The notes under the pieces were generated by a model. The model had not been told where the DNA came from. It saw nothing but the letters and a program-made list of their open reading frames with translations, and searched no databases. Made by a program: the position numbers and the translations under genes. Below, one piece after another: positions 8,183 to 56,127 of a DNA stretch of 64,000 nucleotides. This DNA is from Pedobacter foliorum. Its GTDB lineage: Bacteria > Bacteroidota > Bacteroidia > Sphingobacteriales > Sphingobacteriaceae. Location of the stretch: NCBI RefSeq assembly GCF_013266735.1, contig NZ_JABSNU010000008.1, positions 62,001 to 126,000 on the forward strand. The letters run 5' to 3'. Each line of letters opens with the position of its first letter. Position 1 is the first letter of the stretch.

Positions 8183-8599
8183 ATGGAAATCAACCTGATA
8201 CGTAAGAACAATAAGTTTAATTTTGAAGCTCAGAACCCAAGTGGTCAAACAGTGGAGTTGGATGCTAAGCCGGAAATTGGTGGCGAAGGCAAAGGTTTTA
8301 GACCAATGGAGATGCTATTGGTAGGTTTGGGTGGCTGCAGCGGAATTGATGTTGTAAATGTGTTAACTAAGCAAAAAGAACCACTTGATGACGTTAAAAT
8401 AAAGATTAAGGCTACTCGTAAGGATCAGGAGATGCCGCCAATATTTGATGTGATCAATATTCACTTTGATCTTTATGGGGCGTTAAATGTTCAGAAAGTT
8501 GAGAGAGCATTGGCTTTAACTTTCGAAAAGTATTGCTCGGTATCGAATATTTTAGAGCGTTCTGCTACGCTTAATTTCACTTACGAAATTCATCAATAA
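8183..8599 (+). CDS. OsmC family peroxiredoxin-like protein
   Basis: This is a 138-aa protein of the OsmC/Ohr fold, which reduces organic hydroperoxides with paired cysteines. Both expected cysteines are visible: one in GLGGCSGIDVVNVL (about residue 53) and one in FEKYCSVSNIL (about residue 118). The N-terminal strands LDAKPEIGGEGKGFRPMEML are typical. It lies 71 bp after ispE and may be co-transcribed, though the gap has no terminator or strong promoter. The physiological substrate is unknown. OsmC-like (YhfA type) is more likely than Ohr. Confidence 0.88.
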   Translation: MEINLIRKNNKFNFEAQNPSGQTVELDAKPEIGGEGKGFRPMEMLLVGLGGCSGIDVVNVLTKQKEPLDDVKIKIKATRKDQEMPPIFDVINIHFDLYGALNVQKVERALALTFEKYCSVSNILERSATLNFTYEIHQ

Positions 8600-8654
8600 G
8601 AAAAATTATTGTCAGTGATCTTCAGTGGTCTGTAAGAAGTTTTTTAAAACGATC

Positions 8655-8885
8655 GTCATGCCGGGATTTACGTTATACCCGTAATTCACGTCATGCTGAG
8701 AGCCTAGCATTAGAAAAAATACAAAAAAGTAGTAATGACAATTTTGTATACTCAGTCGTCATCCTGAATTTATTTTGCTTCGCAGCTTCTTCGAGGTCAG
8801 GACCCCGCAAGAGAAAGGAAGCCTCGCTGGTGCGAGATACCGCTCTTCAGCGGCATGACGACCGCTATATACAACGAGCAGAATA
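8655..8885. repeat. Interspersed repeat cluster (TCATCCTGAAT family)
   Basis: This noncoding block is built from repeat pieces. The 80 bp at 8696-8775 match 55868-55947 with a single difference. It contains GTCATCCTGAATTTATTT, then the variant core TTTGCTTCGCAGCTTCTTCG (shared with 47588-47607), then a hairpin-like GATACCGCTCTTCAGCGGCA and GGCATGACG. Similar pieces occur at 9256-9322, 22321-22359, 22648-22730, 47563-47627 and 55853-56127. There is no ORF. Copies lie between genes and mostly downstream of plus-strand genes. Confidence 0.85.
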
Positions 8886-8967
8886 ACCTCTTTGTCATTG
8901 GTAATTTATTTCAGCATCCCTCAATTGCTAGGCTACATTTCTCTTGAGAGGTCCTGAAATAAATTCA

Positions 8968-9255
8968 CTGTTGTCCGGAGAAAGTTTTATAATAAATTTT
9001 AACCGGACAGCCGACTTACAAATGGCTGCAATATTTGGCTTCTGAAATATTATTTTCCTGAATATTGCAGCTATAAAGAGTTAAGAATGCTAAAACACGA
9101 ATTATAATCTAATTTTCTCCGGACAGCCGGATTTAAATAGGAATTTTAAAAATGGGAAAAACAGAGGGCTTGCTTTTTCAAAAGACAAAAAAAACACTGT
9201 TTTTAGCTTAATTTAAATGATTTAATGGTGTGTTTAGATTTTAACCGGACAACAG
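8968..9255 (+). mobile_element. 288-bp non-autonomous element (MITE), copy 1
   Basis: This element has 11-bp perfect terminal inverted repeats, CTGTTGTCCGG and CCGGACAACAG. It is flanked by a 13-bp direct repeat TGAAATAAATTCA (8955-8967 and 9256-9268), as expected of a target-site duplication. It has no usable ORF. A second copy at 22360-22647 is the reverse complement and differs at one base (C here against T, near 9019). Internal copies of the end motif occur as ACCGGACAGCCG near 9002 and TCCGGACAGCCG near 9118. Its insertion site is the palindromic core of the interspersed repeat. A 13-bp duplication would fit mobilisation by an IS4-type transposase acting in trans, which is an inference. 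Confidence 0.9.
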
Positions 9256-9333
9256 TGAAATAAATTCAGGATGACGGGTGGGCGATGTGTGTGCATCACC
9301 GACATGACGAATTCAGGATGACGATTTTATTTC

Positions 9334-9612
9334 TTAGCTGATGTAATCGCGATCCTCATCGCTCAGCGTGTTTTTATGATCTCCCGATTTTATCGGTGTA
9401 TCAACCCTGTCATAAGTGCTCACGGTAGTTTTCGGTCTGCCGGCCCAGTAGCCAAGTACAAATCCCACAAAAGTACATACACCCACTACCAACAGTTTAG
9501 AAATATCTTTCTTTACAAAAATGAAGTTAAATTCTACGGCGTCTGTATTGATCATTAAAAAAATGGTAATGATGGCTGTGAATGCGATGATAAAAATGGT
9601 TTTGGTCTTCAT
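9334..9612 (-). CDS. LapA-like (DUF1049) small membrane protein
   Basis: This is a 92-aa protein with two membrane helices, at about residues 5-23 and 40-60, joined by a short loop containing FNFIFVKKDISKLLVV. The second helix ends in GFVLGYWAGR. This is the layout of the LapA/DUF1049 family, whose E. coli member helps lipopolysaccharide assembly control at the inner membrane. The tail after residue 62 is polar. It lies 3 bp after the stop of the large peptidase gene and is probably co-transcribed with it. Confidence 0.75.
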   Translation of the reverse strand: MKTKTIFIIAFTAIITIFLMINTDAVEFNFIFVKKDISKLLVVGVCTFVGFVLGYWAGRPKTTVSTYDRVDTPIKSGDHKNTLSDEDRDYIS

Positions 9613-9615
9613 GAC

Positions 9616-12426
9616 TTAAAAGCTATAGTTTAAAATTAATTCTAATATAGGATTTTGGTTATATACTTTGTTTACAAAAACACATCTTGCACCCACGTCA
9701 AAAACCGGTTGATAACGCAGTAGGTTCATACTACTACGCAATTCGAAACCAAAAGTTTTAGGTTCGGCTAAATTTGTGTCACTCCCAATATTCTCGTAAT
9801 GACAAAACAATCCTGCCCTCAGGTTTCTGATGTAGGCCAGGGGGCCAATCTCTGCGTCCGGAAAAACGATAGGAAAGCGGTAGTTGAAAAGTAGCGTGTT
9901 TCTGAGGATGCTTCTTGCCTGGATGTTGCTGTAGCCGTAAACCGTGTTTATTTCCTGGTCGTATTTTCTGATGCCTGATGTGTTTTGGTAATTGAAGTTT
10001 ACCAGGAACGAATGATTTTTTAGCAAACCGGGGAAATATAGAAATCCTTCGAAAGCAAACAGCATACCATTAAGGTGATCATCAAAGGGTTGGTTCATGT
10101 AAGAAATCCTAAAAATTTGAGCCCATTTTGGTGCAATGTCTCTCGGAGCTTGCGCAGTACCGTGATTAAAAGTGAAACTGTATTCCATCGGGAAAATCAG
10201 TTTGTTGATAAAAGTACTTGGCAGATTTTCCGGTTGGTATCTTTGGGTGTAACTGGTAAGTGCGTTGAATGAAAAACTGTAAGTGTCATTTAGCGCGTTT
10301 AAGCTAATTGGAACGGAAGCCTGGAGTTGGACATTGTTTTCTCTCCAGTCTCCCTGCAGAACGCCTGATTTTGCGTTGTAGAAGGTTCTTCTGGGGCGGT
10401 TCCGATAAGTGGCTTGTATGATCGGGTAAAAACTTTTTAGGGTAAAGCCCGCATTGTATTCGAATTTTTTAAGATCACGGTAATAATCCACGCCAGTGAA
10501 AAAGCTGAACGTGCTGAGTAAATTGTCTGAATTTAGTTGCAGTCCTCCGCGGTACTCGTTTTCTATTACCGGAATTACGCTGTGCACGTTGAACAGGTTT
10601 GCTAGTGCTCGGTATGGTTTGGAAATGTAGGTGCTGTCGGGAATGTTGTTGAAAACGCTGCCGGTGTTTTCTTGTTTTTGGACAGCGCCGTCAAAATAAA
10701 CGAAATTGTTTCGGCCAATGGGCTTTGGCGATAATGGCATTTCCGAAATTTGGTAGCCGGTTAGTTCGTAGTTGTTGAAAACGATGGCGGCTGTGCTGTC
10801 GGCCTGAGTTGGATTAAAGGCGCCGTATTTAGAGGCGCTCAGAGCGCTTATCTTTTTTGAAACGGTATCTATACTGTAAATGTTATCGATTCCGTTGTAG
10901 TGCGCGTTAAAAGCTATTCCTCGATTAATGTAAATCGGCCTGCTTATCTGCTGTTGCGTTTCCTTTATCAGCTGTTCTGTTTTTTCTTCTTTGTCGGTTA
11001 CCCATAAGGCTTTTCCTTTTTCGCTTACGCTGATGTAGGTGATGAGGTTTGCGGTAGGATTGTAAGAGGGAGTTTGAAGAATTAGGTTTTCGGGATTTGG
11101 GATGGTGGTTAGGGTGGCGCCGGTTTCTGCGTCAAGCTCTATCAGGTTGCATTTGTTGCTAAGGTCAATTTTTACCGCCACTATCTTTTTTCCATCAGCA
11201 GAAATGGAAGGGGAGAAGATCCGGCTTCTTGTGGTTAGTTTTTTCTGCTTCCCGGTTTTTAGGTTGTAACTACAGATGACACTGTAGCTGCGCTGGCGAT
11301 ATCTTGGGTCGTAACGAATCTCGTCCCAAACAATAACTCCGTTGGCGTAGCTGAACCACGGTTGTTCCTGGTAGCCGATGCTTAACAGTTTGGTTTCGTT
11401 TTTCGCGCTGTCGATGATTGCGAAATGTGCCGTCTCAGCTTTGCTTTGTTTGAGGGTCAGAATTCTGCCGTCTTTAATTTTTACAGGAAGGAAGTAGTTG
11501 GTTGCAAATTTGGATTCGCTGTTTAGAGCAGGGTAGTTTTCGGTTGGTGATTTTTCGCTTTGACTGGTCCATTCTTTCTTCAGAATTTCGGTGGTATGGT
11601 TGTACCATTTTTTGGTTCCCATTTTGGTGAACTTTTTTAAGCTGTTGGAAAAGGGGTAAAGTCTGACTGGTCTTTTGCGAATGTCGGTGAGTAGACTGTC
11701 GAAAATGTTTTTTCCAAATTCCTTTCTGATGTTCGAAGCCATCAGGTACCCAAGTTGGTAGTATCCGGGGGTGATGTCTTTTTCTGATCCGAAGCTCGCT
11801 TTGCTGTAAGAGAATTTCTTGCCTTCGAGTAGGCTGGCTCGGTAAGGCATAACCCATGAAGGTTGCCTGCCGCGACCGGCATTTGTAAGTGCCGTTTCGA
11901 TGGTGACTGCATCGCCTTCGAAAAACCAAAGTGGGATGCTAACTCCAAACCAGGCGAAGTAAACATACTCAGGAAAAGGGTAGGCTTTTCCGCCGGTTAA
12001 TTTGTCGTATTGAGCAACGTGTCGGAGCTCATGAACGGCCAGGTTATTTAGCCAATCCTGACTGTCGAATTGCTGCGGTGGGGTGGTGTAAAATTCAGAC
12101 TTTTTTGGGGCGAGTTGAACGAAGCCATTTGCGATCACTCCGCGGTTTTGAAGGATCAGTGGGATGGTGGTTTTTTGCCTTCCCAGACTGCCGCCAACAT
12201 GGGGATAAATGTAGCCGAGCGTATTGGCCATTCTTTGGGCTTCTTTTTCAAGTTCGCTCGGAAAGATGATCTTAAACCCCGAGGTATTTATTTGTCTCCA
12301 TTTTACACTAAGTGGGTTTTGGTCTCCTCCGAAAATCTGAGCAAAAGCACTATGTGAAATGATGCTTAATGTTACTGTAATTATTAATTTGAATATCAGT
12401 TGTTTAATATCTTTATTTTGCGTCAT
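9616..12426 (-). CDS. Large envelope protein: MA-type metallopeptidase, beta-propeller and outer-membrane barrel
   Basis: This is a 936-aa exported protein. The signal peptide ends near ISHSAFAQ (about residue 30). Residues 45-290 form a gluzincin-like domain with the zinc motif HELRH at 132-136 and a third ligand candidate, Glu170 in LWFFEGDAV. Residues 330-560 contain TolB/WD40-like blades (for example SPSISADGKKIVAVKI). The last 330 residues alternate hydrophobic and aromatic strands and end in ILNYSF, a C-terminal Phe typical of outer-membrane barrels. It therefore probably sits in the outer membrane with a catalytic domain in the periplasm or at the surface. The substrate is unknown. A TATTTTAG -7-like box lies about 12 nt before the ATG. 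Confidence 0.8.
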   Translation of the reverse strand: MTQNKDIKQLIFKLIITVTLSIISHSAFAQIFGGDQNPLSVKWRQINTSGFKIIFPSELEKEAQRMANTLGYIYPHVGGSLGRQKTTIPLILQNRGVIANGFVQLAPKKSEFYTTPPQQFDSQDWLNNLAVHELRHVAQYDKLTGGKAYPFPEYVYFAWFGVSIPLWFFEGDAVTIETALTNAGRGRQPSWVMPYRASLLEGKKFSYSKASFGSEKDITPGYYQLGYLMASNIRKEFGKNIFDSLLTDIRKRPVRLYPFSNSLKKFTKMGTKKWYNHTTEILKKEWTSQSEKSPTENYPALNSESKFATNYFLPVKIKDGRILTLKQSKAETAHFAIIDSAKNETKLLSIGYQEQPWFSYANGVIVWDEIRYDPRYRQRSYSVICSYNLKTGKQKKLTTRSRIFSPSISADGKKIVAVKIDLSNKCNLIELDAETGATLTTIPNPENLILQTPSYNPTANLITYISVSEKGKALWVTDKEEKTEQLIKETQQQISRPIYINRGIAFNAHYNGIDNIYSIDTVSKKISALSASKYGAFNPTQADSTAAIVFNNYELTGYQISEMPLSPKPIGRNNFVYFDGAVQKQENTGSVFNNIPDSTYISKPYRALANLFNVHSVIPVIENEYRGGLQLNSDNLLSTFSFFTGVDYYRDLKKFEYNAGFTLKSFYPIIQATYRNRPRRTFYNAKSGVLQGDWRENNVQLQASVPISLNALNDTYSFSFNALTSYTQRYQPENLPSTFINKLIFPMEYSFTFNHGTAQAPRDIAPKWAQIFRISYMNQPFDDHLNGMLFAFEGFLYFPGLLKNHSFLVNFNYQNTSGIRKYDQEINTVYGYSNIQARSILRNTLLFNYRFPIVFPDAEIGPLAYIRNLRAGLFCHYENIGSDTNLAEPKTFGFELRSSMNLLRYQPVFDVGARCVFVNKVYNQNPILELILNYSF

Positions 12427-22316: not shown

Positions 22317-22359
22317 TTTATCGTTATCCTGAATTTATCGTCATCCTGAATTTATTTCA

Positions 22360-22647
22360 CTGTTGTCCGGTTAAAATCTAAACACACCATTAAATCATTT
22401 AAATTAAGCTAAAAACAGTGTTTTTTTTGTCTTTTGAAAAAGCAAGCCCTCTGTTTTTCCCATTTTTAAAATTCCTATTTAAATCCGGCTGTCCGGAGAA
22501 AATTAGATTATAATTCGTGTTTTAGCATTCTTAACTCTTTATAGCTGCAATATTCAGGAAAATAATATTTCAGAAGCCAAATATTGCAACCATTTGTAAG
22601 TCGGCTGTCCGGTTAAAATTTATTATAAAACTTTCTCCGGACAACAG
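22360..22647 (-). mobile_element. 288-bp non-autonomous element (MITE), copy 2
   Basis: This is the reverse complement of the element at 8968-9255, of identical length and with one base difference over 288. The ends are CTGTTGTCCGG / CCGGACAACAG. The 13-bp duplication here is TGAATTTATTTCA (22347-22359 and 22648-22660), which is the complement of the duplication of copy 1, so both copies have the same orientation relative to the repeat core they entered. Outer flanks differ between the two copies. The whole gap 22258-22740 consists of the terminator, this element and repeat pieces. Confidence 0.9.
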
Positions 22648-22740
22648 TGAATTTATTTCAGGATCTCGCACATGCAAGGCTTCCTTTCTCTTGTGAGGTC
22701 CTGAAATAAATTCAGGATGACGATGAACATAATAAAGCTT

Positions 22741-55852: not shown

Positions 55853-56127
55853 ATGTTCGTTGTCATTCTGAGAGCCTAGCATTAGAAAAAATACAAAAAA
55901 GTAGTAATGACAATTTTGTATACTCGGTCGTCATCCTGAATTTATTTCAGGACCTCGCAAGAGAAAGAAAACCTTACTAGTGTGAGATACCGCCCTTCGG
56001 CGGCATGACGAACGCATTAGCAGAGTGTTTAAAAAACAATCTGTCATTCTGAATTTATTTCAGAATCCCTCAAGAGAAAGAAAGCCTTACTTGTGCGAGA
56101 TTTTGAAATAAATTCAGAATGACGATT
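55853..56127. repeat. Interspersed repeat cluster (TCATCCTGAAT family)
   Basis: This fills the 302-bp gap between the AsmA gene and the epimerase gene. It holds the 80-bp block 55868-55947 (one mismatch to 8696-8775), an intact core CCTGAATTTATTTCAGG at 55936-55952, the hairpin-like ATACCGCCCTTCGGCGGCAT, and a second inverted pair TCATTCTGAATTTATTTCAG (56043) / TGAAATAAATTCAGAATGA (56104). No ORF is present. No element is inserted in this copy. Confidence 0.85.

Follow-up and report, generated by a model that had tools for sequence, protein, structure and literature searches.

IS-derived MITEs of bacteria are short and non-coding, have inverted termini, a target duplication and the ends of a full-length IS, and occur as several near-identical copies. 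The closest precedent for the element described here is ISRm22 of Sinorhizobium meliloti, an autonomous IS of an alphaproteobacterium which, in the accessible part of its description, belongs to the IS4 family, carries 6-bp direct repeats as reported, and has all reported copies inserted in REPs at the palindrome axis (PMC1525189). The available part of PMC2266710 places ISRm22 in subgroup IS4Sa, and IS insertion into REPs at one fixed position is already established in the same portions of both sources (PMC1525189, PMC2266710). On the side of the repeats, the accessible text of PMC3733652 defines CGTC REPs by a CGTC/TGTC tag, an 8-9-bp stem starting with AT, a 4-5-bp loop and an arrangement in inverted pairs, and lists Bacteroidetes among the phyla that carry them; the name Pedobacter has 0 occurrences in that text. 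The associations with other transposase genes described there are few and fortuitous, whereas here a transposon targets the repeat systematically.

In Pedobacter foliorum, a 292-bp MITE tied to an IS4-family IS very probably inserts at the centre of a REP palindrome with a 9-bp duplication. As far as the accessible parts of the ISRm22 papers allow comparison, the two systems share the IS4 family, the subgroup as judged by ends, size and duplication, and the position at the REP palindrome axis; the present one differs in comprising a MITE together with an IS, in belonging to the Bacteroidota, in its 9-bp duplications, in the REP sequence and in a habit common to several species. Near-complete restriction to one REP type also sets this MITE apart from the usual IS-derived MITEs. 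Titles and abstracts of the open literature gave no description of the element (subscription papers and ISfinder lay outside this search). It is a clean new example of the known REP-insertion habit, not a new kind of element.

The MITE in the window and in its genome

The window, the whole 64,000-nucleotide stretch that was analysed (G000:C42:62001-126000), belongs to an assembly of 6.08 Mb in 43 contigs, here G000, and carries two copies of the MITE (Table 1). Their ends, CTGTTGTCCGG / CCGGACAACAG, lie at 8968/9255 and 22360/22647, the copies differ by a single base in 288 (position 59, C/T), and the repeats on both sides of the element are exact: TGAAATAAATTCA around copy 1 and its reverse complement TGAATTTATTTCA around copy 2. 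The earlier note had placed both copies correctly and had also described the single change and the reverse-complement relation of the duplications. The outer termini read CACTGTTGTCCGG...CCGGACAACAGTG, that is CACTG...CAGTG, beginning with CA and finishing with TG. Each copy sits at the centre of the repeat core CCTGAAATAAATTCAGG. With up to one mismatch allowed, CTGTTGTCCGG has 5 matches in the window against 0.43 expected, and the 17-bp REP core, with up to two mismatches, has 7 against 0.15; these excesses exclude chance. No ORF that overlaps copy 1 is longer than 33 codons (the next has 31), and there is no transposase gene, as the claim of a non-autonomous element implied; the element is short, has inverted termini and a target duplication, and is in these respects a MITE. 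Both copies lie between converging long ORFs, with the plus-strand frames ending at 8599 and 22257 and the minus-strand frames at 9616 and 22741, respectively. Searches of plasmid and phage collections with the MITE, and of Rfam with window positions 8600-9600, gave no match.

Table 1. Positions of the MITE copies, their target duplications and the REP sequences in the window
Feature	Position	Strand	Remark
MITE copy 1, 292 bp, CACTGTTGTCCGG...CCGGACAACAGTG	8966..9257	+	ends deduced from relatives whose targets do not provide both TG and CA
9-bp target duplication AAATAAATT, left copy (REP loop and 2 stem bp on each side)	8957..8965	.	
9-bp target duplication AAATAAATT, right copy	9258..9266	.	
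Split REP, half without CGTC tag (GGTCCTG side)	8951..8956	-	302 unsplit cores elsewhere in the genome
Split REP, CGTC-tagged half (CAGGATGACG on +)	9267..9276	-	
Internal variant 1 of terminal motif (CCGGACAGCC)	9003..9012	.	one base different in G043, absent or merged in G009
Internal variant 2 of terminal motif (CCGGACAGCC)	9119..9128	.	invariant in 5 aligned rows
MITE copy 2, 292 bp	22358..22649	-	one substitution relative to copy 1
9-bp target duplication AATTTATTT, left copy	22349..22357	.	
9-bp target duplication AATTTATTT, right copy	22650..22658	.	
Split REP, CGTC-tagged half	22339..22348	+	
Split REP, untagged half (CAGGAT)	22659..22664	+	
Intact REP that forms an inverted pair with the REP of copy 2 (CCTGAAATAAATTCAGGATGACG)	22700..22722	-	
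Further intact, unoccupied REP core	55935..55951	.	

We found 13 copies in G000, 8 whole and 5 partial, the latter all cut by contig ends. All 13 lie at the centre of CTGAA-N5-TTCAG, as the proposal of palindrome targeting predicted. The genome holds 302 intact cores of this pattern, compared to 2 matches for a reversed-pattern control, so the placement is not random; 13/315 sites, about 4%, are occupied. Five of the 8 whole copies are mutually identical, which indicates recent spread; two others have one base changed and one has an indel. Relative to the loop, 11 copies face one way and 2 the other (two-sided binomial p 0.022, with copies that are possibly not independent); the same relative orientation proposed for the two window copies is correct for them and does not extend to the genome as a rule. 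Among the loci examined, there were no tandem insertions sharing one duplication.

The target repeat bears the CGTC tag (CGTCATCCTGAATTTATTTCAGGA..) and frequently occurs in inverted pairs; it may belong with the CGTC REPs of the accessible text of PMC3733652, which it resembles in tag, in a 5-bp loop, in this pairing and, for part of the palindromes counted below, in a stem of ~8 bp beginning with AT. In 400 kb of G000 there are 22 cores with a minimum separation of 54 bp, and 7/21 successive spacings are 54-55 bp. Since cores never lie closer than 54 bp there, the doubled core around the MITE arose by duplication and is foreign to unoccupied repeats; empty repeats with two cores, which would have contradicted the earlier reading, did not appear. 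Likewise, none of the cores in 1.29 Mb examined (overlapping loci counted repeatedly) had the same 9-mer twice within 20 bp and no element. In 400 kb of the genome, 17/22 TGAA-type 8-5-8 palindromes (≤1 mismatch) are GTC-tagged and 7/22 have AT at both outer ends. A search of G000 for a Y1_Tnp (RAYT-type) gene gave no match (the control detects Y1_Tnp in 5/14 known genomes).

In its five longest blocks of alignment with G000, the sister genome G156 shows 94-97% identity. Opposite window positions 8615-9333 and 22322-22727, its contig C43 has 28 and 17 bp, respectively, in place of REP and MITE; at the copy 1 locus another palindrome (TGTCATGCCGGCCTACACCGGCATGA) occupies the place. At a third locus (L007) the gap is filled by about 1.5 kb of other sequence with neither core nor element end, and the two flanks of a fourth (L002) align 15 kb apart in G156. 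We found no orthologous locus at which the REP is present but unoccupied; in G156 the two window loci and L007 lack both REP and MITE. The joint absence points to fast REP turnover by some other route, though G000 has no Y1_Tnp match.

Length of the element and of its target duplication

The earlier note had described a 288-bp element with 13-bp duplications. Indeed, in perfect REPs the direct repeat flanking the element on each side is 13 bp, TGAAN5TTCA, as would be expected if a 288-bp element made a true 13-bp duplication, like the IS4 subgroup with duplications of 10-13 bp. This reading is extremely unlikely, as it is refuted by four insertions that show a 9-bp duplication: those in G043 (TAACTCTTC), G009 (ATGAAGGAT), contig C17 of G002 (TATTTTATT) and contig C4 of G104 (AACGCAGTG). 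In all four, CA and TG remain on the element even though at least one of them is missing from the target. The element is thus 292 bp long, CACTGTTGTCCGG...CCGGACAACAGTG, and the duplication is 9 bp, correcting both proposed lengths; the apparent 13 bp arise because the next two bases of the REP equal the outer TG/CA of the element. This documents a pitfall, in which target flanks equal to the outer bases of an element disguise a 9-bp duplication as one of 13 bp.

Full-length partners in congeneric genomes

The terminus CACTGTTGTCCGG is present in 20/145 genomes of the genus, and in nine genomes besides G000 the palindrome is occupied by elements that share the MITE ends. Full-length copies with paired ends, 1364-1385 bp long, were found in G041 (four), G104 (one) and G002 (one), so that an IS with the same termini, as the earlier note had sought, does exist in congeneric species. 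The transposase frame is unbroken in 4/6 of these copies, giving 401-405 aa when counted from the matched start; in the other two, both from G041, it is broken. All four unbroken proteins match the NCBIfam IS4 model NF033592, with 198.3, 211.1, 213.5 and 213.5 bits against a cut-off of 115, and Pfam, run on one transposase, gave matches to DDE_Tnp_1 and DUF4372. By motif match, all four also carry YREK (Y-x2-R-x3-E-x6-K) from residue 300, hence E307, together with D131 and D201. The D-D-E spacing and the YREK motif define the IS4 family in the accessible part of PMC2266710; with the NF033592 matches, they assign the partner transposase to this family. The 9-bp target duplication corresponds to about one helix turn, as in the IS4 family.

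For subgroup IS4Sa, the accessible part of PMC2266710 gives ends CA------T, a length of 1150-1750 bp and a duplication of 8-10 bp. With CACTGTTGT, 1364-1385 bp and 9 bp, respectively, the partner IS agrees with this table in each entry, and its ends, size and duplication would fit IS4Sa. The IS4-type transposition suggested earlier is therefore supported as to family, by the partner IS of the congeners, and not as to the subgroup with 10-13-bp duplications.

The first 18 bp of the left MITE end equal an end in G001, G004, G041 and G122. On the right, the first 20 bp equal an end in G001 and G004, where the elements concerned are cut by contig ends, and the first 14-17 bp recur in the complete IS copies of G041 and G002. 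The sharing of ends is as expected if the MITE were an IS-derived element with a diverged interior.

Transposase matches at E≤0.001 occur in 21/145 genomes, many of them distant or fragmentary; in G107 the protein is 45% identical and its element is cut by a contig end. G000 itself has no transposase match at E≤0.001, and a search of its assembly with the IS4 model found nothing (the control detects IS4 in 6/14 known genomes); the partner is accordingly assigned from other species. So the MITE is either an orphan in G000 or has its partner in unassembled sequence, and the five copies at contig ends leave room for the latter. Plasmid collections contained only transposase matches of <60% identity, the best 34%.

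The MITE itself aligns with relatives in G043, at 73% identity, in G104, where there are two copies, and in G009, at 71% identity across half the length. The two internal CCGGACAGCC copies are variants of the terminal motif, the second being invariant across the five aligned rows. By eye, the 175-bp relative in G009 (L036) resembles a deletion between the internal CCGGACAGCC repeats of a longer form. Two short G002 loci, L077 (G002:C8:240374-240492, 119 bp, containing Ns) and L078 (G002:C29:67005-67042, 38 bp), have flanking 9-mers that are inverted, not direct, and are either fold-back products or scaffolding artefacts.

Target choice and competing readings

In 12 genomes we counted the ends that match the 13-bp terminus exactly and are preceded, ahead of CTG, by 62 or more bases; 99/114 lie in CTGAA-N5-TT and 104/114 in AA-N5-TT. 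These 114 are ends, two of which may share one insertion, so that insertions are fewer; many ends outside G000, found by exact 13-mer, sit at contig breaks, with just one side visible. By genome, the ends in CTGAA-N5-TT number 20/20 in G000, 28/35 in G001, 14/16 in G002, 10/10 in G004, 0/2 in G009, 1/1 in G031, 8/8 in G041, 0/2 in G043, 6/8 in G104, 1/1 in G114, 10/10 in G122 and 1/1 in G157. Restriction to the REP core is complete in G000 (13/13 copies) and incomplete in G001, G002 and G104; copies at unrelated sites, which would speak against targeting, are thus absent from G000 and few in other species (15/114 ends outside CTGAA-N5-TT).

Several choices shape this count. Six genomes (G011, G014, G047, G058, G177 and G178) each have a single exact 13-mer, 0/6 in CTGAA-N5-TT. 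These matches were attributed to chance, since what follows the 13-mer does not look like an element by eye; including them would give 99/120. The single-end genomes G031, G114 and G157 were kept, since the sequence behind the end resembles other element ends, and G031 and G157 have a transposase fragment near it; keeping these three (3/3 fit) slightly favours the reading of REP preference. One G002 end, the 115th, with a flank identical to another, was merged. A mutated end in G000 (L003, TACTG in place of CACTG), the 21st of that genome, was left out of the 20 counted ends and included in the 13/13 copies. A search of G000 and six other genomes with a shorter 11-mer brought up no additional element end besides L003; its bare matches, 16 spread over five of the six and 3 in G000, were put down to chance.

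CTGAA and TT hardly vary from site to site, a constancy that is due in part to the REP family itself, and the loop varies: an earlier pass over 106 ends gave 25 different loop 5-mers, with TTTAT and ATAAA accounting for 67/106 (reverse complements counted separately). By eye, five of the seven G001 exceptions look like degenerate copies of the same repeat. A contrast element in G151 and G038 with the same 13-bp end shows 0/16 ends in CTGAA-N5-TT, a figure to be read against the only 23 such sites in G151. In G151 it is about 600 bp long and has CATTGTTGTCCGG as its other end wherever that end is visible. Two of its copies can be read across both junctions and point to duplications of 10 bp, exact in one copy and with a mismatch in the other. 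The transposase of the partner IS had no match in G151.

The site could have been inherited instead of chosen, if element and REP had spread as a single block, whether through recombination or within a composite repeat. Both window copies do lie in the same REP core, and REP and MITE are absent together from the G156 loci examined, as such a block would be. Against it, the copies differ in what lies outside the REP or REP pair (70-bp flanks), 2/13 G000 copies are oppositely oriented, 302 cores in G000 have no element, and the four elements of G104 occupy four distinct loop sequences, each exactly duplicated. We therefore regard joint spread as highly improbable. Recognition of any hairpin or cruciform of this geometry, irrespective of REP sequence, is a stronger contender and still unlikely. 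It draws on the variable loops, on the G009 target, ATCCCGAT-GAAGG-ATCGGGAT, a 5-loop palindrome that is not of the TGAA type, and on the remaining two G001 exceptions, which fit TTCCCAA-CCTGA-TTGGGAA if both one-sided ends belong to one insertion.

Palindrome counts in 400 kb of G000 weigh against this hairpin reading. Only 21/72 perfect 7-5-7 palindromes are TGAA-type and the other 51 are used by 0/13 copies; with up to one mismatch there are 328 8-5-8 palindromes (a shuffled control has 219), and of these 328, 22 are TGAA-type and the other 306 are again used by 0/13. If any perfect 7-5-7 palindrome were used equally, the chance of 13/13 TGAA-type targets would be about 0.29 to the 13th power, 1e-7, which favours recognition of a symmetric sequence in double-stranded DNA. 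In addition, the G043 and G002-C17 insertions, read from both sides, show no palindrome by eye; these two show that neither REP sequence nor palindrome is strictly needed. Structure may nonetheless help target choice, since different 5-loop palindromes occasionally serve as targets, in G009 and perhaps also in G001.

Under the favoured reading, insertion of the MITE into a REP chosen by its sequence, the element would move by DDE transposition, the REP would be read as a symmetric double-stranded sequence with one transposase subunit per half-site, and the transposase would formerly have been supplied by an IS now missing from G000. Since CA/TG come with the element, insertion would leave TGAA-N5-TTCA on both sides but break the longer CTGAA-N5-TTCAG, so that a site would probably be consumed by its insertion.

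A wider picture, to which we assign a low probability, is a genus-wide, REP-dedicated two-part system in which an IS4Sa-like transposase clade and a MITE family dock harmlessly in CGTC-REP arrays, each insertion consuming its site, and in which the clade may also shape or spread the REPs. The insertions offer a clean natural record of how IS4-family elements choose their targets, with a near-fixed palindrome and a variable loop; together with the contrast element, which has the same 13-bp end but does not favour the REP, they make what governs this choice directly testable. By landing in REPs, a gene-less transposon can spread yet stay between genes.
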